Shown here: positions 1,048-52,346 of the stretch, piece by piece
Layout of the letters: every line of letters starts with the position of its first letter
Position numbering within the stretch: position 1 is the stretch's first letter
Assembly (NCBI GenBank): GCA_945875335.1
Contig: CAMCKD010000001.1
Location: forward strand, 294,643-358,642
DNA length: 64,000 nucleotides
Direction: 5' to 3'
Source of the DNA: an uncultured Clostridia bacterium
Lineage (GTDB): Bacteria > Bacillota > Clostridia > Oscillospirales > Oscillospiraceae
Made by a program: the position numbers and the translations under genes
The notes under the pieces: generated by a model
Database searches by the model: none
What the model saw: only the letters and a program-made list of their open reading frames with translations
Told to the model about the DNA's origin: nothing

Positions 1048-1305
1048 TTATTTCTCACTACTGTTATCATCCGATGAATTGTCTTGAACACTATAAAAAG
1101 CATAGGCATCCCCAGTTGCCTTATAGCTTTCTCTCGCTTCATTAAGGCTTATGGGGTTGAAACCTGTTTCATCGGGATGTCGGACCTGATATGCACTATC
1201 CATCCATCCACAAACAGGACACTCATTATAAGAATCGTATTCCTTAAACTCATGCTTTCCACATACCGGGCATTTGAAATCCCAATTATCAATTATTCCG
1301 GCCAT
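1048..1305 (-). CDS. Cys_rich_CPCC family protein, candidate immunity protein
   Basis: An 85-residue protein. The ATG at 1305 was chosen because GAGGAGG lies nine bases upstream. Two CPVC knuckles (CPVCGKHEF and CPVCGW) are followed by NPISLNEARESY, matching the Cys_rich_CPCC pattern of two Cys pairs and a GxNxxSLxEAR segment, so it probably binds zinc. It overlaps the end of the portal-fusion gene by 17 bases. It therefore sits directly after a toxin-like C-terminal domain, the usual position of an immunity gene. An internal promoter upstream and a hairpin downstream could express it alone. The immunity role is inferred from position, not from homology to a known immunity protein. Confidence 0.75.
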   Translation of the reverse strand: MAGIIDNWDFKCPVCGKHEFKEYDSYNECPVCGWMDSAYQVRHPDETGFNPISLNEARESYKATGDAYAFYSVQDNSSDDNSSEK

Positions 1306-4051
1306 CCACAAGCGCCTCCTCAGATTTGCATTTCTCAAAATACTTTATCGCCTTTTCTATATCAAAGTCTTTTCCTTTGTCATATTTTGCAATAAAGTAA
1401 GTCTTAATTCTTTTCCCCGGAATTCCTTTTGCATACTCTCCAGTTTTCCTGTTGAATCTACAGACTTCTGGTTCCTTTGTACCATCTGGATTTATACAAT
1501 ACGAGAGATAACCGTCTATGTCACCACCGCAAGGCTGCTTCAGAAATTCCTCTGCGCCTTTCTGGTACTCCATCGCATTCTTGTAATCCGGGAACTGCCA
1601 TCCATGCCCTTTTTCAGGATGTTCCCAATGCCTACTCAAGAGCTCTTCATTCTCAAACTCCTTGCAGCTTACATTTGTTCCTCTAGCAGACGGTTTTTCT
1701 ATCGTCCCAACTTCGTTAGAAAACGGTATGTCCCTCTGCTCAGTTTTTGCGTCGGAGAAGTCTTTTCCTGCAAGCGGAGAACCCTCCTGCGCTTTCCCTT
1801 CCTCATCTATCGGGATGTGAACTCCATTTTTTGTGGTAATCCACGAAACATCCCCATCTGAAGTCTTTCCGCTTCCTCCAGTATTTGATTGCTTTTTCCT
1901 CTTTTTTGAAGCATCAAAGTTGGATTCAGCATCCAAGCCTCTTATGAAATCTCTCAAGGATATTATATCACAAATTCCAATTTTGTCAATATGTTGCGAT
2001 TCACCCTGATTCTGTTCTTTCTCTTCCTTATCAAGAAGAAGCCTGAGGATATTCACGCTATCGGCAAACGGCTGGAATAGTGACGGCTTCAGCTTCTCTA
2101 TGGTTTCCAAATCCAGGAAAACAGGGCTGCTCATTTCTTCGTCATCTGTAAGAAGTTCTCCCTCATACTCTGTACACAAGAAAATGACAGGCTGCAATCC
2201 GCTCTCAGGTTCCCATGGACCTTTACCAATCTCAATAATATTGGTAGGTGTAATCCCGAATTCTTCCTGTGTTTCCCGAATTGCCGCAGTAAGCGCATCC
2301 TCTCCAGGCTCTATATGCCCACCAGGTCCACAAATCAATCCTCTTCCTGTATCATTCTTTCTAATCCCTACCAGGATTTTCCCATCCTTCTCCACGAGAA
2401 CGCCAACAGAACCTCTTGATTCTGCATCGGTCTTAGTGGTTTCTTGTTCTGCCGGACTCATATCCTGGGGAAGTTTTGTGGCTGTTGGAGCTGCATCAGG
2501 CGCATTTCCTTCAGGCATTGTCTGGGGATTTTCATTACCACCCATCCCTGGCATTTCTGCCGGATTTCCAGCCTCCATTCCAGGCATACCCATCTGAGGC
2601 TGATTTTGCTTTTGCTCAATCTCCATCATTGCCTTGACATAATCGTTTTCAATGTCAGAAGCATCAATTATCGTATCAATTGTAAATTCATCCTCAGAAG
2701 CAAGCTTATCCCTTACCTCAGTGGAATCCAATGCGCCCATGCTCACATAAGTCTGTGCTGTTTGTGCATTGGTCAACTGAACTTGCGCTTTCTGCTGTGC
2801 AAGAGCTACCTTCTCTGTCTCAGTCATAGACCAAAGCGGAGAAAACTCTATGTCAATCTTCGGAACCTTATCAATCTCTCCAGTATGCTTTCCAGCCTGG
2901 AAGATGATAGATAAAAGATACCTCAAATTCTTTCTGACCACTCTCTTTTGGATTCTCTCTACATAATTGTAGTAATTCTCCATATCTCCCTGCCCGGTAG
3001 CATTCATTCCAGCAGGTGAACGGCCAAAAAGAACAGTCTGCGGAATAGAAGTCACCGCAGACAAGAAATTACACGTTGTATCTATGACATCCTTTACGCC
3101 AGCATATGAAAACGACCTGAAATCATAGTCCTCTCCTTCAGAATCAATGGCAATGCTATTCAACAGCCCCCTTGCCATATCAATGACCTGGAGCCTTCTG
3201 AGCGCTAAATCTTCTCCTTCTTCTGTCATCATCAATTCAGAAAGACCCTTCATTCTATATACAGCCTGAACAGATCTATCCAGCATTTTCGGAGCTGTCC
3301 CATGCGCTATCTCAGCATTTTTGATAGCCCGGTTAATTCTTACATACTCAGGCATTCCCCACATCAGATAGTTACTATTGGAGCAATTCTCCGGGAGAAC
3401 TCCATTTGTGAATACAAGGCATCTGCTATCATGGACTCGAAAACTTCCGAATCTGCTATTGATGTCATAGAACTCAGGTGTTCCAAGTCTACTCGCTCTG
3501 CTTCCAAACGGATTTTTAGGGTCATATGTAAACATGGATTGATAATCCGGCTGAATAACAGACCTATCATAAACCCTAATATCATCAATGGAACGAATTG
3601 CTCTCCAATTGACAGGCTCTTCCAGCCCTCTCCCATCATTGATGAGCATAACCGCTATTGACCCGCCAAATAGTCTCGACCACTTCAACGCAGTCATGGC
3701 AGTCTCTTCCCAGTCTAGTTCATCAAGCGCCTCTGTATAAAATTTAATGATTTTCTCATCCGTTACACCCTTCAACTCAAACCCGTGCTTGATAGCTTCC
3801 TCTGCAGGTGTATCAATTATTTTTGCAAAGATTCCATTCCCTTCATAATTGATGGTTAGCTCAGAATCATCAACTATTGGCTCTTGAGCAAAAATGTACT
3901 GCTCAGAAGAATCTTTCTGTGTTCCATACCTATTCATCATATTCACATATCCATCTGAACGGTATGACTTAACAGTTTTCCCGGTCTCTCGCTCTATAAT
4001 TCTCTCATAGTGCTTTATCCGGGATAGCCTTTCTTTATTCTGCTCTGTCAT
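1289..4051 (-). CDS. Portal protein fused to Nudix hydrolase and BECR-like toxin domain
   Basis: 920 residues from the ATG at 4051 (SD GGAGG ten bases upstream; an earlier GTG at 4069 overlaps the SD). Residues 1 to about 470 resemble phage portal proteins of the DUF1073/HI1409 type, which form the dodecameric DNA gate of the head. A Met/Pro/Gly-rich linker runs from about 480 to 535. Residues 545-665 are a Nudix domain with a complete box (GGHIEPGEDALTA through RETQEEFG). Next is a Lys-rich linker, then NGVHIPIDEEGKA near 742, a phrase common before effector domains on phage head proteins. Residues 790-920 contain CRFNRKTGEYAKG and IKTYFIAKY, resembling Barnase/EndoU/colicin-like nuclease (BECR) toxins. 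Simple portals are about 450-550 residues, so this is a large fusion. The portal and Nudix calls are firm; the toxin call is moderate. Confidence 0.85.
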   Translation of the reverse strand: MTEQNKERLSRIKHYERIIERETGKTVKSYRSDGYVNMMNRYGTQKDSSEQYIFAQEPIVDDSELTINYEGNGIFAKIIDTPAEEAIKHGFELKGVTDEKIIKFYTEALDELDWEETAMTALKWSRLFGGSIAVMLINDGRGLEEPVNWRAIRSIDDIRVYDRSVIQPDYQSMFTYDPKNPFGSRASRLGTPEFYDINSRFGSFRVHDSRCLVFTNGVLPENCSNSNYLMWGMPEYVRINRAIKNAEIAHGTAPKMLDRSVQAVYRMKGLSELMMTEEGEDLALRRLQVIDMARGLLNSIAIDSEGEDYDFRSFSYAGVKDVIDTTCNFLSAVTSIPQTVLFGRSPAGMNATGQGDMENYYNYVERIQKRVVRKNLRYLLSIIFQAGKHTGEIDKVPKIDIEFSPLWSMTETEKVALAQQKAQVQLTNAQTAQTYVSMGALDSTEVRDKLASEDEFTIDTIIDASDIENDYVKAMMEIEQKQNQPQMGMPGMEAGNPAEMPGMGGNENPQTMPEGNAPDAAPTATKLPQDMSPAEQETTKTDAESRGSVGVLVEKDGKILVGIRKNDTGRGLICGPGGHIEPGEDALTAAIRETQEEFGITPTNIIEIGKGPWEPESGLQPVIFLCTEYEGELLTDDEEMSSPVFLDLETIEKLKPSLFQPFADSVNILRLLLDKEEKEQNQGESQHIDKIGICDIISLRDFIRGLDAESNFDASKKRKKQSNTGGSGKTSDGDVSWITTKNGVHIPIDEEGKAQEGSPLAGKDFSDAKTEQRDIPFSNEVGTIEKPSARGTNVSCKEFENEELLSRHWEHPEKGHGWQFPDYKNAMEYQKGAEEFLKQPCGGDIDGYLSYCINPDGTKEPEVCRFNRKTGEYAKGIPGKRIKTYFIAKYDKGKDFDIEKAIKYFEKCKSEEALVDGRNN
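1962..1989 (-). promoter_or_regulatory. Intragenic sigma-A-like promoter upstream of CPCC gene
   Basis: Perfect TTGACA (1984-1989) and TATAAT (1962-1967) with a 16-bp spacer lie inside the portal-fusion gene, between the Nudix and toxin-like parts. A transcript would cover the toxin-coding end, but I see no well-placed in-frame ribosome binding site for it. It would then carry the CPCC gene and reach the hairpin at 988-1026. Confidence 0.55.
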
Positions 4052-4073
4052 CTCTGAACAGCCCTCCACATCA

Positions 4074-5479
4074 TCAAATCAAGTAAGCAGGGTTGAATGT
4101 TGTCTTTATTGCTATTTCATCAAATGCATTTGCAGAAGCATCAACCATGTCCTTGAACTTCCAATCCGGGAAATTCTCTAACTGGTATAGATATTCTTCA
4201 TTCCATTTCCCAAACAGCAAATCAAAATTCCCTGCCTGCCACTGTGCTGCCATCGGTTCAGCTCTTGATTGTTTACTTCCTGATTCTCTCACAGCGGTAA
4301 TATCAAACCCTGCGAGCATCTTTATATATGACTGCGCTTGCTCTTTTCCAGCTTGCCCAGGGTCTTGAGGAATCCTGATTCTTACTCTTTTGTATTTTGC
4401 TCTATCCGCTTGAGCTGTTAGCTTAATCGTATTTCTAACATCCTGTGCTGACATCTGTCTGTTAATGACATCTATTACAACATATCTGCCATTTTTTCTT
4501 CTTCCCATTAAGACTCCAGCTGTATATGCAGGGTCGCCTTTTTCATCCTTCTCAGATGCCGCCAAATCCCAACACCTGCAAAAATACGTTATGTCATCAG
4601 GTAGAATCTCCAGGATATTCCCAAGTTGAGTTCTCTTGAAGAACAATCCGGCAGATGCCTTTATCTTCCAGTTACCAGAAAGAAGTCTTTCTCTTTCAAT
4701 TTCAGGTAGTGCTTTCAGGTTTGCCAAATAGCCCGGGTCTTTCGCCAGCAATTCTTTGTTGTCATATATAGACGAAGGAATAAACGTAACAGATTTTGGT
4801 TCTGCTCTTTCCTCCGGTGTTACCAGCCCAAACTTTTCCCACAACTCTTCCTGTGTATCACCCCAGGTTATTACTCCATTTCTTCGCATCATCCATCGGA
4901 TAATCCCGCTTCTCTCTGGAATCGGATATCCGGTGTCTTGGTTAATCCACCATTCAATAAATTTTGCAACCCAGCTATCAGCATCCGGGTTGCAAGTTGC
5001 TCTGATATAAGGTTTTATTCCACAGGTGGAGCGGTTACGGGAAAGCATATAGAAAAACTGATACTCAGAAAAATGGCACAACTCATCCCAAAATATGGCA
5101 CAAATCTGACCGCCTTGATAATTCTGAACCTCCTGGTCTCTTTCTATATGCTTGAATGTGATTTTTGACGTTATTTCATTCTTCTTATTCCGAAACGTCC
5201 ATTGACCATTTGCAATACTCGCAGTCGCTCTTTTGCAGGATGAATATAAATCAACTGATGAATCCCACAAGCCACCAGCCTGAAATATCTGGTTGTAATT
5301 ATGACGGAAAATCGTACAGGTAAACCCTTTTACATTCTTGTGTCTCATGGGGTCCATCAGCAAAGAAAATGTTTTACCAGAACCAGCTGATCCTAACCAC
5401 CAAAGATTGCAATGTCAGCCTCAGTCGTCAAGAACTGCATCTGAGGACCAGGCTGTGGCCATATTTCTCTCTTTGGCAT
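4074..5479 (-). CDS. terL: Terminase large subunit, reading frame interrupted
   Basis: The DNA-packaging ATPase and nuclease that works at the portal. It starts at the ATG at 5479 (SD GAGGTGG) with MPKREIWPQPGPQ, continues to ...AIFGG and then meets an in-frame TAG at 5393-5395. In the -1 frame the protein resumes with GSAGSGKTFS (Walker A) and runs to the stop at 4074. Further motifs are AIFWDE (Walker B) and CWDLAAS...GDPAYTAG (nuclease domain acidic site). Compared with the expected GGSAGSGKT, about five extra bases sit right at the P-loop. The remainder, about 430 residues, is intact and uninterrupted. This could be a real disabling mutation, a sequencing error or recoding. SD spacing and overlap with neighbours look normal for a packaging operon. 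Confidence 0.85.
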
Positions 5480-41860: not shown

Positions 41861-41940
41861 GTTTTCCTCCTTCTTAAAATCTTTTTTACACAAAGTAAAA
41901 AAGCGTAGCATCCATTCCACACGCATCATCGTATGGAACA

Positions 41941-41968
41941 AGTATACCACGCTTTTATTTATTGTCAA
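41941..41968 (-). promoter_or_regulatory. Promoter of the four-HTH gene
   Basis: TTGACA (41963-41968), 16-bp spacer, TATACT (41941-41946). It sits just after the stop of the 41976 gene. A GCGTGG/CCACACGC-type partial repeat lies in the leader. Confidence 0.75.
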
Positions 41969-41975
41969 TATTTAT

Positions 41976-42173
41976 TCAATGACTGCCAAATTCCCATTCT
42001 CGGAGCAATCTTGCTATCGAAGTATATCTCAGTTCTTTTCCTGAACTCAGTTTCAAGAATAGTGTAGGCTTTCCTCTGAAATAAATAGCCTTTAATGTTG
42101 CATCAAATTTATCCCCGATTTCTATATCAGATTTCTCATCATGTATCAGAAATCCCTTAAATTTTACCAGCAT
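41976..42173 (-). CDS. Small phage protein
   Basis: 65 residues. LVKFKGFLIHDEKSDIEIGD and ATLKAIYFRGKPTLFLKLSSG form a beta-rich, OB- or barrel-like pattern. GTGG SD. Downstream of the tRNA region. Confidence 0.65.
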   Translation of the reverse strand: MLVKFKGFLIHDEKSDIEIGDKFDATLKAIYFRGKPTLFLKLSSGKELRYTSIARLLREWEFGSH

Positions 42174-42224
42174 ATTTTCACCACTTATCGATTCAATCTC
42201 AACTATTCACGCTTTCACATTGGA

Positions 42225-42327
42225 ATCTGCTGGAATAATCCATATGTCTTACTCAACGCCTAGACACAACATTCTGCGTTGCCTCTCCTTATCCACGCCT
42301 CAGACGTATAAGACGATTCCAGCAGAT
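42225..42327 (-). ncRNA. Candidate structured RNA element
   Basis: Nested complementary arms: a 12-bp outer helix (42225-42236 with 42316-42327), a 6-bp inner helix (GTCTTA with TAAGAC, just inside) and a CAACGC/GCGTTG helix in the centre. No coding frame is credible. It lies between the tRNA-Met and the 41976 gene. The remainder of 42174-42535 shows nothing else recognisable. Function unknown. Confidence 0.5.
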
Positions 42328-42535
42328 ACCCAACACGGAACTTTTCAGCCCTACGCCACTGCATTGGTCGTATCCGTTTCTTTATATATCCGGTGCCAGA
42401 TTCCCATGAAAAACAACATTGAACGGAAGGAAATTAGTAGGAGGTGATTTCTGGAGAAACCTCTGGCTCTTTGATGATGCAGCATCAAATCGTCTGGCAT
42501 TTCTGGATTTGGCTTCCACAGCATACCAAGCTGCA

Positions 42536-42611
42536 TGGGTGCGGAGGTAGGACTCGAACCTACGACATTCAGCTTATGGGGCTGACAAGCTTCCATCTGC
42601 TCTACTCCGCT
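42536..42611 (-). tRNA. tRNA-Met (anticodon CAU), phage-encoded, atypical
   Basis: A 76-nt cloverleaf with encoded CCA: D stem GAGC, anticodon stem UCAGC/GCUGA with loop CCCAUAA, T arm GUAGG UUCGAGU CCUAC. Oddities: C at position 33 in place of the near-universal U, A1 opposite A72, and C at the discriminator. The anticodon stem lacks the three G-C pairs of bacterial initiators, so it is probably an elongator, or an Ile tRNA if the anticodon is modified. Confidence 0.85.
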
Positions 42612-42616
42612 ATATA

Positions 42617-42706
42617 TGGAGGAGGGTGTGGGATTTGAACCCACGGATGGTTTAATCCATCAACGGTTTTCAAGACCGCATCCATAAGCCGCTCGGACAA
42701 CCCTCC
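42617..42706 (-). tRNA. tRNA-Ser (anticodon UGA), phage-encoded
   Basis: A 90-nt class II tRNA with a long variable arm (GAUGG/CCAUC), acceptor GGAGGGU/ACCCUCC, loop CUUGAAA with anticodon UGA, and encoded CCA. It lies five bases upstream of tRNA-Met, at the 3' end of the large noncoding transcript. Confidence 0.92.
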
Positions 42707-42714
42707 ATTATCCA

Positions 42715-43210
42715 ATAAGCGTGGGCCAGTCTCTCCCGGCTGTCAAGCTGCCGCTTCTGCCTCTGCTTCGAGTTCCGTAAACGAGCGGTTGCCCCATCCC
42801 CGTATTCCCCTCCGGTTGGATGGTACATCATGGGCTAGCTCCATGGGGGCCTGATACTGGGCCGGGATTTCGCTCCCAGCGGGCGGTCATGCCTTAAAGT
42901 CAAGCACAAACACAACTCAGTTTTAAGTCAAACTTGCAAACTCACGTTTTTTCTCTAACGTTTGAAAAAGGCGCAGCCCATCAGCGCTATTCACATCAGC
43001 GGCTCCTCGCCCTGCATTGCTGCATTGTTCCGCCTTGGGGCTGGTAGCTGGTTTCCGCCAGCCACGGGAATGTCTTTCCATTCTGTCTAGCGATTAAGGT
43101 GACGTATGAAGTTGTACCCCGACATTCGCACTTCATGTCGGTTATGAATAACCATCTGGTTAATTCATCTGGAATTAAAATAGCGGTTCTATGCCGCATC
43201 CCCTTCGGAC
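42715..43210 (-). ncRNA. Candidate large structured phage RNA (ROOL/GOLLD-like context)
   Basis: About 500 nt with no credible gene lies between SSB and two tRNA genes, behind its own perfect promoter (43217-43245). The minus-strand RNA has many strong local helices: GUGGCUGG/CCAGCUAC with a 6-nt loop (43044-43065), GGGA/UCCC closing GCGAAA (42864-42877), CAUGG/CCAUG (42829-42845), CCAUCC/GGAUGG (42794-42823) and a leader GCGG/CCGC hairpin. ROOL and GOLLD RNAs are giant structured RNAs of Firmicutes phages, typically placed beside tRNAs. Length and setting fit ROOL best. I cannot align to the published consensus, so identity is inferred. Confidence 0.65.
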
Positions 43211-43245
43211 AGATGAATTATACTCCATCTTTCGCCTTTTGTCAA
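43152..43245 (-). promoter_or_regulatory. Promoter and operator-like element of the large RNA
   Basis: TTGACA (43240-43245), 17-bp spacer, TATAAT (43217-43222). The element CCATCTGGTTAATT is at 43152-43165 with the full dyad TAACCA-TC-TGGTTA, inside the transcribed region. Confidence 0.85.
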
Positions 43246-43263
43246 TATGCTCTGAGATATTTT

Positions 43264-43695
43264 TCAGAACGGGAAGTCTTTATCTTCTCCAACAATGCTC
43301 CCATAGTCTTCCATCTCATTACTCTGTCCATAAGCATCATATTCGGAAGGCTCATCCTTAACGGATTCCTCTTTCCTTTTGGAGTCTCCAAAATAAATGC
43401 GCTCAACATTTATCTCACTGGCTCTGCGCTTATTCCCATCCTTGTCAGTATAGTTCCGTACCTGGAGTCTCCCGTATACTACCGCCATACTCCCTTTGGA
43501 GAAATACTTCTCGATGAATTCAGCGGTGTTTCTCCACGCAACACAATCAATGAAGTCAGTTCCCCTTTCCTGCCCTTCAGGAACGTAATCACGATCAACA
43601 GCGAGAGAAAAACTTGTGACAGCTACACCGCTCGGTGTCCTTCTCAGCTCGGGGTCTCTTGTAAGCCTTCCCATAATTGTAATGTTATTCAGCAT
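43264..43695 (-). CDS. ssb: Single-stranded DNA-binding protein
   Basis: 143 residues. MLNNITIMGRLTRDPELRRTPSGVAVTSFSLAVDRDY, FIDCVAWRNTAEFIEKYFSKGSMAVVYGRLQVRNY are the OB-fold signature. The acidic C-terminus ends EDKDFPF, the partner-binding tail. Last protein gene of the replication operon. Confidence 0.95.
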   Translation of the reverse strand: MLNNITIMGRLTRDPELRRTPSGVAVTSFSLAVDRDYVPEGQERGTDFIDCVAWRNTAEFIEKYFSKGSMAVVYGRLQVRNYTDKDGNKRRASEINVERIYFGDSKRKEESVKDEPSEYDAYGQSNEMEDYGSIVGEDKDFPF

Positions 43696-43717
43696 AATTA
43701 TCCTCCAATTTTATATT

Positions 43718-44443
43718 TCAGATTTCATTCAGGTCAGGCTCTCGTTCATCATATCCTTCAAACCTTCCCCTTGTTCCATTATATCCATATGTTTGTTTGA
43801 TTGCGTCATCGATGTAGATAGGTGCTATCTTGTATTTTTCATCAAAATCCTCCTGAATCATATCATGACATTCCATATGATGCTTCCTGCAAAGAGGCTC
43901 CATCCTCATTCCAGCCTGATCTACCAACTTCCGTTTGTGCCTGATTCCTATCCTATCCCAATGATGCCCCTCAGCGCTTAGTCCACATACGCAGCATTTC
44001 TTTCTGACTGCACAGGCATAAACGTAATCGTATATGTCATCTATGAAATCAATCACATTGAAAGAACATGGGATTTCATAATCCAGAATAAACCTAACTA
44101 GATATTTTTGAAAGGCACACGCCAAACTCATCGTGCAATCCGAAAGAGAAAACGTAAAGTCAGGCTTGAGTAATTCCTCAGAAGCAAAATTCTTCTTCAG
44201 AATTTCCTTCGTCCTTGTAGTCCCTTCCCCTGTGTATGAGGCAATCTCTCTGATAAATTTGTAACACGACTTTCTTTGTCCATCAGATATTCTTCGGTTG
44301 TCTATCAATTCGACTTTGCAAAACTTGTAATCTCTTTTGCACATCGTGAAGACATCTTCATACCTAGCTCGTATTAGTAACTCAGATGATTTCTCATCAT
44401 AGCCAACAATACGTCCGCTTATGACATCAATCGGACTTTTCAT
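43718..44443 (-). CDS. Putative HNHc nuclease
   Basis: 241 residues, ATG at 44443. The C-terminal half has CCVCGLSAEGHHWDRIG...AGMRMEPLCRKHHMECHDM, an HNH/zinc nuclease core of the type found with phage RusA and SSB genes. N-terminal 120 residues are helical. A recombination or repair role is likely. Overlaps rusA by 17 bases. Confidence 0.85.
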   Translation of the reverse strand: MKSPIDVISGRIVGYDEKSSELLIRARYEDVFTMCKRDYKFCKVELIDNRRISDGQRKSCYKFIREIASYTGEGTTRTKEILKKNFASEELLKPDFTFSLSDCTMSLACAFQKYLVRFILDYEIPCSFNVIDFIDDIYDYVYACAVRKKCCVCGLSAEGHHWDRIGIRHKRKLVDQAGMRMEPLCRKHHMECHDMIQEDFDEKYKIAPIYIDDAIKQTYGYNGTRGRFEGYDEREPDLNEI

Positions 44444-45715: not shown

Positions 45716-46630
45716 TCACATGATGTCATCCAAATCATTCAATCTTCCTTTCTTTTCTTTCTTGAGGTAATTCCCTTCAATTACCTTCGGAAAATTATCA
45801 GGATGGATAAACCAATCAAACGGAACATGCCAACCACTCGGATTCTCTCCTTTTAACCACGGAGAATGCTCCACGATGCGAATTCCTTCTATTACAACAT
45901 CAAATCCAATTTTCGGATTTTCCAATAAAGCTTTTAGTCGTTTGTATCGTGAAGATTTTGGATTTATACTCCTAACTTGAGATATTCCATATACTGATAA
46001 AGAATTCCATTGTTCGACTACGCTTTCGATTTCAAATCTTCTCTTTGTGTTTTCTGCTTTCCTCTTTTCCTTCTGAGGCTCATTCTCTTCTTTTACTTTT
46101 TCTTGATCTTTTTCTAAAACTGCTTCTTCAACTACATATGAATCTGAGTCTAAGCCTGAATCTGAATCTAGGCCTGAATCTAAACCTAATCCTAAACCTA
46201 AACCTGAGTTTCCATTTTGGTTCCAAGGTGTTTCCATATTGTTTCCATCCCCAATTCCTTTTGTGTCTGGAGATACAGAATGGTTGTAAGTATCAGTATA
46301 CGACTTATTTTCTTTGATGCATAGTTGTGCAAATTCATCTTGATATACCGTAGGGTGATACCTGTCAGATTTAAGAGTATTGTGCATCCTCCAATGCTTG
46401 ATTACGATAACTCCATTGTCAAATCCTATAATGAATCTCTTTGCAAGCAATAACTTTATTTCATCCTCACTGGCACCAATCAATCGTGCAATTCTTTTGG
46501 GATTTCCAACAAACCCATCATCATCTGCCCTCATATTGAGATGAAAATATAATGCTTGTGTTGACAGCGGCATATCCAGAAAAGAGTCACTATCACATAT
46601 CTTCATAGTAAACATTCTTTTATCTGCCAT
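45716..46630 (-). CDS. Phage replication initiator / replisome organizer
   Basis: 304 residues. The N-terminus (DSFLDMPLSTQALYFHLNMRADDDGFVGNPKRIARLIGAS) is the winged-helix start of phage replisome organizers. A low-complexity linker (LGLGLGLDSGLDSDSGLDSDS, positions about 145-165 of the protein) contains tandem repeats. The C-terminal part ends in a DnaD-like segment (WLKGENPSGWHVPFDWFIHPDNFPKVIEGNY). The origin may lie within this gene, as in related phages. Confidence 0.85.
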   Translation of the reverse strand: MADKRMFTMKICDSDSFLDMPLSTQALYFHLNMRADDDGFVGNPKRIARLIGASEDEIKLLLAKRFIIGFDNGVIVIKHWRMHNTLKSDRYHPTVYQDEFAQLCIKENKSYTDTYNHSVSPDTKGIGDGNNMETPWNQNGNSGLGLGLGLDSGLDSDSGLDSDSYVVEEAVLEKDQEKVKEENEPQKEKRKAENTKRRFEIESVVEQWNSLSVYGISQVRSINPKSSRYKRLKALLENPKIGFDVVIEGIRIVEHSPWLKGENPSGWHVPFDWFIHPDNFPKVIEGNYLKKEKKGRLNDLDDIM

Positions 46631-46997: not shown

Positions 46998-47633
46998 CTA
47001 CTCTTCATGTTCGTGAAGGTAAACATACATACCATTTGGCCCGATGTTTCTATAAATGAAATCATCACATTTTGCTTTGCTCAAATGATTTCTCAGGACA
47101 TTATACTCATACGCATATTGCCCATTTTCTTTTTTTGAATCAATTCGAGACTGTATCTCTTCATCCGTATAATTGGATTCCACCAGATACAAATCATAGT
47201 TTTTGGCAACGATTCCATTCAGATTATTGGTGTCTGTCGCATAAAATACCTTCCCATCACCAAAATGCAGTTTATAGCCACAATTTGGTACATCATGTGT
47301 AAGCCTAACCGGAATGACAGTTACGATGCCATAGTCATATTGGTAATCCATCTCCAGAACGTCTATTTGCCGTTCAGGAACTCCAGATTTGATAAGGCTA
47401 TCCACTAACCACTTGCCACAAGAAAACCGAATAGATGGTCTCTCTGCGGCTATACGCCGTATTGTAGTCTCTTTGAAATGGTCGCCGTGAATGTGCGTGA
47501 GTAAAATCAGCTTAATTTGATGTAAAAATGGCTCAATTTTCTTGTAAGGAACCCCGCAGTCAATCAGGACTATGCCGTGAATTAACACGGCATTTCCCTT
47601 TGAACCTGTTGATATTACATGATAATCAATCAT
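46998..47633 (-). CDS. MBL-fold metallo-hydrolase
   Basis: 211 residues. THIHGDHFKETTIRRIA is the metal-binding HxHxDH motif. CGKWLVDSLI and VFYATDTNNL support the fold. This phage group sits beside RecT and is thought to be a nuclease- or phosphodiesterase-like partner. Overlaps recT by four bases. Confidence 0.88.
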   Translation of the reverse strand: MIDYHVISTGSKGNAVLIHGIVLIDCGVPYKKIEPFLHQIKLILLTHIHGDHFKETTIRRIAAERPSIRFSCGKWLVDSLIKSGVPERQIDVLEMDYQYDYGIVTVIPVRLTHDVPNCGYKLHFGDGKVFYATDTNNLNGIVAKNYDLYLVESNYTDEEIQSRIDSKKENGQYAYEYNVLRNHLSKAKCDDFIYRNIGPNGMYVYLHEHEE

Positions 47634-48574
47634 ACAGCATCGATGTCAATTACTTCGACCTCATTCCCCGCTGCCTGTGCATCCTGGAAGATATTCTCTG
47701 GTGCTTCAACGGGGATGTCTGCCTCAGGTGTCGTGACAATATCTCCATTGGCAATTTCGGACATCGAGCCATCAGAATCCATTGCACGAATCAGCTCGGT
47801 ACTCATAATTCCCCATTTGGAGATAAGCTGCCGGAGCATCGTTTTCTTTGCCATCCCATCAAAGTCCTTGTACCAGAACGAGCTATATTTCCACATCTCA
47901 GAATCGGGAATCTCGTGGTTCTGAATCTTGTTATAAGCAGATGCAGAAAAAGCCGGAGAATACTGGTCTGCATGGGAAAGCATCTTTTTCTTCGACCAAT
48001 ACAAAGTCTTTTTGAATCCGTTCAAGTACTCAAAATACGCCATATACCCAATAACAGGAAGCGTTTCACGAACATCATCATCTTCGATGAACGAGAACAA
48101 GTGCTTTCCGGTCATCTTATCCCGTCCTTGGTATTCTCCTTCACGGATTTCAAGGACATCAATATCAGAGTAAGAACCGCTCTTCAAAGCCATCTGGAGG
48201 TAGCCTTTATACCCAAGTACAAAAGTTGCCTTTGTCATTTCGGGACAGATGAGTTTCCCCATTCTGTCTTTCTTCTCCTTCTGCTTAAAGGGGACAAGGT
48301 AGTATTGTCCCAACTGGGGAGAGGGAGACAGGCCCAAAGATTCACCGAGCAAAGCTCCTGCAAGAATGGTTCCGGCATCACATTCCTGCAGAGCCGGATT
48401 TACGGCAACAGCAGATGTAATGGATGCAATGAAACGCTTGGCACGTTCGGGGTCTCCCAGCGTATTTCTTACCAGCTTCTGATACCCATCAGTAGTAATT
48501 GCCACGGAAAACTTCGGCTTCTGCTGGACTTGCTGCTTAGGCTGCGCTTGTGTCATTTCGTTTGTTCTGCTCAT
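47630..48574 (-). CDS. recT: RecT single-strand annealing protein
   Basis: 314 residues, ATG at 48574 (SD GGAGGT). GALLGESLGLSPSPQLGQYYLVPF, KATFVLGYKGYLQMALKSG and the C-terminal MWKYSSFWYKDFDGMAKKTMLRQL are diagnostic. Anneals complementary single strands in phage recombination. It overlaps the DUF1351 gene. Confidence 0.95.
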   Translation of the reverse strand: MSRTNEMTQAQPKQQVQQKPKFSVAITTDGYQKLVRNTLGDPERAKRFIASITSAVAVNPALQECDAGTILAGALLGESLGLSPSPQLGQYYLVPFKQKEKKDRMGKLICPEMTKATFVLGYKGYLQMALKSGSYSDIDVLEIREGEYQGRDKMTGKHLFSFIEDDDVRETLPVIGYMAYFEYLNGFKKTLYWSKKKMLSHADQYSPAFSASAYNKIQNHEIPDSEMWKYSSFWYKDFDGMAKKTMLRQLISKWGIMSTELIRAMDSDGSMSEIANGDIVTTPEADIPVEAPENIFQDAQAAGNEVEVIDIDAV

Positions 48575-49421
48575 AATGATAACCTCCATCATTCATAAAT
48601 TGCTTCAATGCTTTCAATTCTTCCAATGTGCCACGCACAGTAAAAGACACTTCATACAGTTTTTCCTGCTGCAACGGAGCTTTCACCACAGGAGCAGATA
48701 AATACTGCTCTTGGTTTTCTTCTTCCTCCTTGACAATTTGCTGAACTTCCATGTCGTGACGCTCATTCTGAACTTTCTCTTGGCAAAAGTTTTCTCTCGC
48801 TTGCCTCATACGTTCAAGTTCGGAATGTCTATCTGTCACAGTCTGGATTGCTTTGTAAACATCCATCGTCTTAGTGTATTCAACAAGAATTTCATCGGCA
48901 TATGAAAGAGTAGAAATCAGTTCAAGCTCTTTCATTATCCGGTCAAGATAATTCCGACATTCAGCTTTTGCAGACTTCTCTGTGGTGGACATATTCACCT
49001 TTATCCCAAAGTTTTCAAAGGTTGCAATGTCAGCTGAAACTCCAATGCTGTCTCGGTACTCTTCAAAGAAAGAACGTACTGCATCGGTTTTTTTTCGCTT
49101 CAGTTCTCCCTCGACAGCTTTAATTTTCTCAGAAAGCTGCTTATCTGCATCCTCAAACAAATCTCCGGCACAGGATTTGTATATGGCCTCAAACTCCTTG
49201 TAAGGAGCTTCAATTTTAGCCTTAACTTCTTTCCTCCTGGCCTCCAATTCCCTATACCGACTGTTAAGTTCAGCTCGGACTTTTTTCACGGCCTTTACGG
49301 TGTCCTCGTTGCACTCCATGGCAAGTGCTTCATCAACCATATCCTGGATATTCTTCTGTACAGTTCTCAGCTGTTCCTCGATAATCGGGAGCTGCCTTAT
49401 GACAATCAATTCATTCTCCAT
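48537..49421 (-). CDS. DUF1351 recombination-associated protein
   Basis: 294 residues. A helical coiled N-terminus (VKKVRAELNSRYRELEARRKEVKAKIEAPYKEFEAIY) and a C-terminal VSFTVRGTLEELKALKQFM match DUF1351, almost always just upstream of RecT. Likely assists annealing or acts with the missing exonuclease. Confidence 0.85.
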   Translation of the reverse strand: MENELIVIRQLPIIEEQLRTVQKNIQDMVDEALAMECNEDTVKAVKKVRAELNSRYRELEARRKEVKAKIEAPYKEFEAIYKSCAGDLFEDADKQLSEKIKAVEGELKRKKTDAVRSFFEEYRDSIGVSADIATFENFGIKVNMSTTEKSAKAECRNYLDRIMKELELISTLSYADEILVEYTKTMDVYKAIQTVTDRHSELERMRQARENFCQEKVQNERHDMEVQQIVKEEEENQEQYLSAPVVKAPLQQEKLYEVSFTVRGTLEELKALKQFMNDGGYHYEQNKRNDTSAA

Positions 49422-50839: not shown

Positions 50840-52120
50840 ATGGCTTCCATTGAGAAGAGAGGGAATTCATACAGAATTACTGTATCTATGGGGAGGGATA
50901 TATATGGAAAAAAGATATATCAAAAAACAACTTTCACCCCAGACCCTACTCTCTCTGAAAAAAAGAAGGATAGGGCAGTACAAGACTTTGCTAGGGAATT
51001 TGAGATGAAAGTTAAAAATAAACTCATAATGGATGGTAGAAATATCACTCTGAAAGAGTTTATTGAAACATGGAAATCAGATTATGCCAAGGAACACATT
51101 GAAGCAAGCACTCTACAAAGCTATAACGATGAATTTAACAGAATCCTCCCGAAATTAGGACATCTAAAACTTACGGAACTCAAGCCCCATATGTTAAACT
51201 CGTTTTTCTTATCACTTTCAAAAGATGGTTGCCGAATTGATGGGAAAAAAGGAGGATATTCCAAAAACACAATTGCAAAAACTCGTGGTGTTCTATCTTC
51301 TGTATTAGGAACTGCGGTTGATTGGGAAATCATTCCAAACAATCCCTGTGAAAAAATAAGATATAACGCAGAAGAATCGGCTGATAGGATTAAATATTTC
51401 ACACCAGAACAAGCCATCTCATTTATAGAATTTATCGAGGAACCATACTATATCACTGTCAAAGCATCTAAGCGGATTGATGATACGGGTAAACCGTATG
51501 AGGTTCCTGAGTATAAAAGCAAAAGAGAAATGAAAGAACAAATCAAAGTCTTCATTATTTTAGCTATCTATACAGGAATGAGAAAAGGTGAACTTGTAGC
51601 ATTAAAATGGTCTGATATTGATTTTGACAATGATTTAATCTCAGTTAATTCATCTACAACTATCATCAATAAGAAGCAAGGGATAAAAGCTCCCAAATCC
51701 AAGACATCACACCGGAAAATATCTATCCCCCACTTCCTCACGGATAGACTAAAAGCTATGTATGATGAAAGAGAAGAATACAAAGCCAGTCTGATGGATT
51801 ATTGGCAAGGCGATGATTGGGTCTTTATCCAGAAAAACGGAAAGCAGATAAACTATTACACCCCTTATTCAGCATTTCACGATGCCATATTAAGATACAA
51901 TGAGAGCCACGAGGAAAAGCTTCCAGTTATTCCCCTCCACGGGCTGAGACATACGTCTGCTACACTCTTGATTTCTAACAATATGGATATTAGGACAGTA
52001 TCGAGCAGGATGGGACACGCTCAAACATCCACAACTATGAACATCTACGCCCATGCCCTTGAATCTGCGGATAAGGAATCAGCCGGAATCTTAGCGAACG
52101 CATTGAAAAAGAAACCATAA
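50840..52120 (+). CDS. int: Tyrosine integrase
   Basis: 426 residues, SD GAGGAA. N-terminal AP2-like arm-binding segment (YRITVSMGRDIYGKKIYQKTTF), SAM-like core-binding domain, then a catalytic domain with the first Arg in YTGMRKGELVALKWSDID, Lys about residue 290, HGLRHTSATLL (HxxR) and HAQTSTTMNIYAHALE (His and Tyr nucleophile). Transposon/phage Int family of Firmicutes. Its stop lies 150 bases from tRNA-Ala, the likely attachment site. Confidence 0.96.
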   Translation: MASIEKRGNSYRITVSMGRDIYGKKIYQKTTFTPDPTLSEKKKDRAVQDFAREFEMKVKNKLIMDGRNITLKEFIETWKSDYAKEHIEASTLQSYNDEFNRILPKLGHLKLTELKPHMLNSFFLSLSKDGCRIDGKKGGYSKNTIAKTRGVLSSVLGTAVDWEIIPNNPCEKIRYNAEESADRIKYFTPEQAISFIEFIEEPYYITVKASKRIDDTGKPYEVPEYKSKREMKEQIKVFIILAIYTGMRKGELVALKWSDIDFDNDLISVNSSTTIINKKQGIKAPKSKTSHRKISIPHFLTDRLKAMYDEREEYKASLMDYWQGDDWVFIQKNGKQINYYTPYSAFHDAILRYNESHEEKLPVIPLHGLRHTSATLLISNNMDIRTVSSRMGHAQTSTTMNIYAHALESADKESAGILANALKKKP

Positions 52121-52270: not shown

Positions 52271-52346
52271 TGGTGGACTTGAGGAGATTCGAACTCCCGA
52301 CCCCCACAATGCGAATGTGGTGCGCTCCCAGCTGCGCTACAAGCCC
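52271..52346 (-). tRNA. tRNA-Ala (anticodon CGC)
   Basis: A 76-nt cloverleaf, anticodon loop UUCGCAU, acceptor GGGCUUG/CAAGUCC, CCA encoded. Its 3' end faces the prophage, so the phage most likely integrated there and regenerated the gene. The distal prophage end is outside the window. Confidence 0.95.

Follow-up and report, generated by a model that had tools for sequence, protein, structure and literature searches.

The stretch of DNA analysed here (the window, 64,000 nt) comes from an uncultured Clostridia bacterium of the Oscillospiraceae (GCA_945875335.1, contig CAMCKD010000001.1) and contains a prophage. Portal, large terminase, SSB, DnaD-like loader, RecT and integrase genes were located in this prophage, as listed in Table 1, and HNH and RusA genes are also present. 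On the minus strand, a sigma-70/sigma-A type promoter heads a unit composed of a non-coding leader, two tRNAs and a conserved structured RNA element. The original prediction had placed a giant structured RNA of the ROOL or GOLLD class in the leader, with its own promoter and two tRNAs. The exact promoter is indeed there, and both tRNAs were recovered by ARAGORN and Rfam.

Table 1. Features of the window and, in the last row, known RNAs on related contigs. Positions are those of the window unless a locus is named.
Feature	Position	Strand	Remark
Portal gene	1289-4069		prophage
Large terminase gene	4074-5363		prophage
Conserved RNA element, ~320 nt	42215..42535	-	both ends putative
Long 3' hairpin	42220..42333	-	closing stem P5, inner hairpin P6 (AACGC/GCGUU), then UGUGA
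Conserved core	42334..42402	-	models R1 and R2; covariation
Stem P3	ACGGA 42373-42377 / UCCGU 42335-42339	-	in conserved core
Unpaired conserved segment GGGCUGAAAAGU	42340-42351	-	in conserved core
Hairpin H3	42352-42372	-	loop L2 AUGCAG (42359-42364); in conserved core
Hairpin H2	42388-42402	-	in conserved core
Hairpin H1	42470..42489	-	loop L1 CUGCAU (42477-42482); located via the complement of L2
tRNA-Met (CAU anticodon)	42536..42611	-	ARAGORN, Rfam
tRNA-Ser (UGA)	42617..42706	-	ARAGORN, Rfam
Non-coding 5' leader, 509 nt	42707..43215	-	putative start point at 43211; main interval of the original prediction
Motif TTAACCAGATGGTTA	43149..43163	-	downstream of leader promoter
Exact promoter TTGACA-17-TATAAT	43217..43245	-	heads the leader-tRNA-element unit
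SSB gene	43264-43695		directly before the leader promoter on the minus strand
DnaD-like loader gene	45716-46630		prophage
RecT gene	47630-48592		prophage
Integrase gene	50840-52120		adjoins tRNA-Ala
tRNA-Ala	52271-52346		beside integrase gene
Exact promoters (first base of -35)	737, 1989, 12611, 14695, 15544, 34519	-	
Further exact promoters (first base of -35)	36704, 37331, 38637, 43245, 50091, 50809	-	
DUF3800-VIII; int-alpA; RAGATH-5 (Rfam)	L118:1155-1219, L121:8432-8496; L118:3657-3721, L123:4790-4854; L146:3001-3056		contigs that carry the element

The window has 13 exact TTGACA-(16-18)-TATAAT sites, all but one of them on the minus strand, compared to a mean of 0.017 expected from 60 first-order simulations. 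Therefore, the leader promoter is of a phage-wide type and is not the mark of an RNA. Several of the promoters share a longer consensus, and the resulting 32-nt pattern, which was derived from the very sites it was scored on, had 7 matches and none in shuffles. A TTAACC-type motif lies 42-74 nt past the -10 box in 7 of the 12 exact minus-strand promoters, the leader promoter included. The pattern taken from TTAACCAGATGGTTA had 14 matches at up to 3 mismatches, its own source among them, and a shuffle mean of 1.78. The shared promoters and the TTAACC-type motifs look like a phage-wide promoter/5'UTR regulon. In some cases, the motif stands just ahead of a GGAGG-like ribosome-binding site. A perfect 11-bp inverted repeat (43161-43171 / 43210-43220) was seen at the start of the leader, where it overlaps the -10 box. 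Also, a near-consensus promoter (11/12, TG before the -10 box) is present on the minus strand of the window at 41941-41968, and a terminator-like hairpin (41903-41922) follows it immediately.

The leader has no convincing gene, as had been claimed. Its 67-aa ORF (42996-43199) gave no Pfam match at E<=0.001 and no tblastn match at E<=1 in 50,697 phage records. The strong nested hairpins reported for the leader were not borne out: its fold scored z = -1.11 relative to dinucleotide shuffles, of which 15 in 100 folded equally well. The best z among 140-nt segments of the leader was -2.35, at its 5' end. Searches for homologues of the leader were negative in phages and plasmids (best E 0.5 in each), in 300 family genomes and in 144 of 148 loci; the other four (L001, L004, L085 and L103) were set aside as copies of the window itself. 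The SSB gene was also tried as a guide to the RNA and was abandoned, as the 80 SSB-linked loci yielded no convincing relative of the leader (blastn best E 0.073; nhmmer none at E<=10). With a fold at shuffle level and no relative in the searches made, the leader did not hold up as a giant structured RNA of about 500 nt.

The strongest local fold of the region is found on the 3' side of the tRNAs, beyond the interval of the original prediction. The segment 42205-42345 on the minus strand gave z = -5.52 (0 of 200 shuffles) and z = -4.78 in the sliding scan. This segment contains the long 3' hairpin of the conserved element, which is taken to run from the 3' end of tRNA-Met to the (U)GUGA behind the 3' hairpin. 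Thus, a structured phage RNA linked to tRNAs does exist here, but it sits 3' of the tRNAs (42215-42535) and not in the 5' leader, and the conserved element measures about 320 nt instead of the predicted 500 or so.

Relatives of the element were found by sequence, and tRNA context was not used. A blastn search with 41950-42540 returned two phage records from human faeces, which were the first link of the window to relatives; one shares 42399-42328, the other a shorter part, and in both the match comes after a tRNA. A third, weak match (E 0.6) was dropped. An 18-base pattern taken from the shared core led to 13 viral contigs, in which tRNAs were the sole Rfam matches at curated cut-offs. Two models of the core were built, R1 from 12 cores and R2 from 22, and all 13 of these contigs score with R2. 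The window core, which is among the building sequences of both, scored 83.6 bits with R1 and 78 bits with R2. With a pattern of the divergent type, 14 contigs belonging to a second subtype were picked up, 13 of which score, and the two last scans added 3 new member contigs. The total is 35 loci including the window, with 24 distinct cores, nearly all on phage contigs. R2 made 32 matches in 44 sources, the weakest at 51.8 bits and with nothing further up to E = 1, and 3 matches in 3 additional sources; its 22 building sequences match by construction. An nhmmer search with 42174-42535 also matched related loci. Terminase and portal types differ between loci and, therefore, the RNA occurs in dissimilar phages. 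The element is rare: R1 detected it in 3 of 400 genomes of the family and 2 of 391 of the class, the genome of the window being counted both times, and in the phylum sample that genome was the only match among 398. The three genomes other than that of the window scored 67, 42.6 and 36.7 bits with R1.

Several candidates were rejected as chance matches. An exact-pattern scan of 84,980 species genomes gave five stretches, all of which were discarded in this way. By their R1 scores, the lone match in the 80 SSB-linked loci (L062, 21.6 bits) and the pattern matches L101 (12.5 bits), L107-L111 (13.5-20.6 bits) and L115 and L126-L145 (16.2 bits at best, or no match) were also dismissed.

No Rfam 15 family matched the element in the 30 of 35 loci scanned; the remaining five (L112, L122, L124, L125 and L147) duplicate scanned ones over the core and flank. 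The suggestion that the RNA may be a new class if no known model matches it therefore stands for the element. It was not described in the title or abstract of any of the best matches in the literature, although most subscription journals lie outside the coverage of that search.

Read from the tRNA, the element consists of a variable 5' part, H1 with its loop L1, an AU-rich linker, H2, an A-rich linker and stem P3. P3 encloses H3, with its loop L2, and the conserved unpaired stretch, and is followed by P5 with an inner hairpin and usually GUGA. P3 is ACGGA/UCCGU, or ACGGU/ACCGU in the second subtype, and the stem of H3 occurs as UGCG/CGCA, UACG/CGUA and UCCG/CGGA. The unpaired segment ends in UGARAWGU, and between H3 and P3 the unpaired bases U, G, A, A, G and U are the same in all 22 cores.

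The four helices and the loop-loop (kissing) helix covary. In the core alignment (22 distinct sequences, 17 pairs), 97.0% of cells were paired and 7 pairs were changed on both sides. None of 500 shuffles reached these results on four of the five measures, and 4 did so on the fifth, which counts further pair types; slid controls were 33-50% paired. The alignment made with the model, which is fitted to the structure, was 98.9% paired with 8 pairs changed on both sides. When H1 and the kissing helix were added to the core (12 sequences, 32 pairs), 98.4% were paired and 13 pairs were changed on both sides, in sequences that were picked because H1 aligns in them, so that other members, including the window, are not in this count. 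Here, none of 500 shuffles did as well on four measures and 19 did on further pair types, and slid controls were 34-58% paired.

The kissing helix itself, between the loops of H1 and H3, was 100% paired in the 12 sequences, and 3 of its 5 pairs were changed on both sides. A run of at least five pairs between L1 and L2 was found in 12 of 14 distinct loop pairs, compared to a mean of 4.1 when the loops were permuted (0 of 10,000). With the window and L106 left out and L146 and L148 included, 10 of 14 members had a Watson-Crick run of at least five (permuted mean 2.8, 0 of 5000), and when one bulge was allowed, all 14 of the same members showed kissing (permuted mean 3.5, 0 of 5000). In these tests at the H1 position, the loop words were picked by eye. 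A loose search over all upstream hairpins found the contact in 15 of 21 real cases; with letter-shuffled loops, the mean was 12.0 and the maximum 18 out of 21, so that this search barely separates the two. H1 is 80 nt before the core in the window and 96 nt in L106, compared to 27-40 nt in the other loci with H1. Since H1 is distant in these two and L1 was located from its partner loop, the contact there rests on less. In the second subtype, the helix requires a bulged A. The loops of L087, GUAUG and CAUAC, are complementary to each other and not to themselves. Such loops can meet within one molecule or head to tail between molecules; the contact may be purely intramolecular.

The 3' hairpin is less firmly supported than the four helices and the kissing helix. 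The sequence of P5 varies between members. For 22 of 24 loci, the finder returned a stem of 10-15 pairs and no more than 3 mismatches, although in L086, L088, L099 and L100 its register seems wrong as judged by eye. On a simple score, P5 beat all 60 mononucleotide shuffles in 3 of 24 loci, and in 17 of 24 it was reached by at most 6 of 60. GUG lies within 3 nt behind P5 in 19 of 24 loci (GUGA in 17) compared to 8% of shuffles; L106 carries UGUAU there. P5 is thus supported as a set and by the trailing GUG and is weak locus by locus. As the evidence from the core and the kissing helix is independent of P5, the weak control leaves the odds of our reading unchanged.

In 21 of the 24 distinct loci, the core is preceded on the same strand by a called tRNA whose end lies 84-300 nt away. 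This count omits L112 and L116, where the core is 6 nt from the contig end; the distance is 133 nt from tRNA-Met in the window. The exceptions are L105, with its nearest called tRNA 827 nt upstream, and L118 and L146, with none called. The identity of the upstream tRNA varies (Ser, Met, Gly, Phe, Lys, Gln, Glu, Leu, Ala and Thr). In L089, L091, L093, L095 and L106, the next tRNA starts at most 10 nt past the end of the element. Each source had one match to the element, and the arrays carry up to eight called tRNAs upstream (L092). Intrinsic terminators were found behind the element in L092 and L104 and in no other locus in the same scan, and strong promoters (at least 10/12) upstream were found only in the window and in L106, where the promoter is inside the element. 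No reading frame is open across the roughly 240 nt in all 24 loci. There was also no recurring protein partner, as no Pfam or PHROG family occurred in more than two loci among 81 neighbouring ORFs of at least 95 aa from 13 of the 24 loci.

The setting resembles that of two known RNAs. In PMC12286853, ROOL and GOLLD are described as phage RNAs, often near tRNA islands, whose function is not known and whose cages form by kissing loops and A-minor contacts. ROOL is presented there as a structured RNA of phages and prophages with kissing loops and with no partner protein identified. Like the element, it is found in phages or prophages near tRNAs, but its model (RF03087) has 574 positions compared to about 320 nt. 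The model search that the original prediction had proposed, run over 41900-43800, gave no ROOL or GOLLD match at E<=10. The ROOL model also had no match at its gathering cut-off in the window and related loci and none in 14 records, and it does work elsewhere, with 370 bits in one of 118 class genomes. Conversely, R2 with filters off reached at best 2.2 bits on a genuine ROOL locus (L102). By model tests in both directions, the element is not ROOL.

For GOLLD, the same source (PMC12286853) describes a 3' region that is conserved and a 5' region that is less so, a linker that sometimes holds tRNAs and, for many of these RNAs, more than 800 nt. The element shares the phage and tRNA-island setting of that account, and its layout, with the conserved part on the 3' side, is similar, but the leader has neither structure beyond shuffle level nor relatives in the searches made. 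The element differs in its length of about 320 nt and in having no match to the GOLLD model (RF02032) in the window or the related loci scanned, a model for which there was no positive control. That model was also silent in 249 phylum genomes, 14 control genomes and Lactobacillus phage LBR48. According to PMC9241854 and PMC7567579, phage K and ICP1 make abundant long non-coding RNAs of unknown role, and where the phage K RNAs sit with respect to tRNA genes is reminiscent of GOLLD and ROOL. These come from other hosts, ICP1 has no tRNAs, and the likeness to the element is one of description. The ROOL and GOLLD assignment was thus not upheld. The element shares their setting, not their sequence or size, and perhaps works like them.

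What these loci have in common is a phage RNA element that is conserved and linked to tRNAs, with helices that covary and a contact between two loops. The best explanation as a whole, to which we give a probability of about 0.6, is a structured non-coding RNA of about 320 nt, from a family that is not in Rfam 15, within phage tRNA operons. Judging from the layout, it would be co-transcribed with the tRNAs. Its place within tRNA operons, where in some phages it takes up the entire spacer from tRNA to tRNA, makes excision by tRNA processing probable, and cuts at the 3' and 5' ends of the tRNAs would set it free as a separate RNA. It would then fold into H1, H2 and a P3 that holds H3 and the unpaired segment, with the kissing helix between H1 and H3 and the 3' hairpin after these. 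It would presumably act as a folded, non-coding RNA without a dedicated partner protein encoded nearby. By analogy with ROOL and GOLLD, it would most likely be a stable RNA that is made alongside phage tRNAs and assembles within or between copies through kissing loops, and perhaps it acts as an oligomer. It may be a third kind beside the two giant cage-forming phage RNAs. The fullest version of this idea is a third, compact class of RNA-only homo-oligomer, in which units of about 320 nt, cut out by tRNA processing, build rings or cages by head-to-tail pairing of H1 and H3 loops between copies; we hold this version tentatively and consider it rather unlikely.

Another possible explanation is that the element is a cis-acting 3' trailer with no independent life, which protects the preceding tRNA or times its maturation by blocking 3' exonucleases or recruiting a processing enzyme. 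That it follows a called tRNA at 21 of the 24 distinct loci, and that this tRNA varies in identity, would fit such a role. However, there is one element per source in arrays with as many as eight upstream tRNAs, the distance from tRNA to core is variable, and a covarying loop-loop contact with a long 3' hairpin seems more than a trailer would need, so we judge this explanation unlikely. Doubts are stronger for the view that the leader, tRNAs and element together make up a single giant RNA like GOLLD, whose 5' half is poorly conserved, whose linker holds the tRNAs and whose conserved 3' domain is the element. The layout is that of GOLLD as PMC12286853 describes it, yet the leader folds no better than shuffled sequence and no relatives were found for it, the stretch before the tRNA in many relatives holds further tRNAs with mostly unlike spacers, and the GOLLD model, though lacking a positive control, had no match.

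The invariant unpaired bases between H3 and P3 could be read as the active site or binding site, together with bulged nucleotides, of a compact catalytic or ligand-sensing RNA (self-cleaving or riboswitch-like). This is very improbable considering that the ORFs tested share no downstream gene family, that the core lies 84-300 nt away from the tRNA end and that no Rfam ribozyme or riboswitch matched the element. As for the leader being a ROOL or GOLLD RNA itself, its length, its position beside tRNAs and its own promoter had made the case. The promoter type is common to a dozen other sites, the z of -1.11 is that of shuffled sequence, neither model matched at E<=10 and no homologue turned up in phages, plasmids, the 300 family genomes or the 144 of 148 loci, which makes the proposal scarcely credible. 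Returning to the structured non-coding RNA of about 320 nt, a shorter family with a covarying kissing contact, dissimilar phages as carriers and likely boundaries set by tRNAs would ease testing of what ROOL and GOLLD do. The finding also suggests that the spacers of phage tRNA arrays may hold more unrecognised RNAs.

Other RNAs were noticed on the contigs that carry the element. On a viral contig of 114 kb, a tmRNA (RF00023, 114.9 bits, also called by ARAGORN) lies at L114:3203-3612, some 1.1 kb past the element, and ARAGORN gave one at L125:9552-9961 as well. DUF3800-VIII, int-alpA and RAGATH-5 RNAs were also present; the first two share some contigs with the element but are separate Rfam models of 64 and 71 positions, found at other positions. 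ARAGORN reported tRNAs with 2- or 4-base anticodons in the arrays of L113, L117, L121 and L123. Finally, the motif GGCGGCYCGGAAAGACG is common to the tRNA-array loci L086 (2773-2789), L088 (2361-2377, minus strand), its copy L097, and L104 (677-693), and it may be part of a further spacer RNA.
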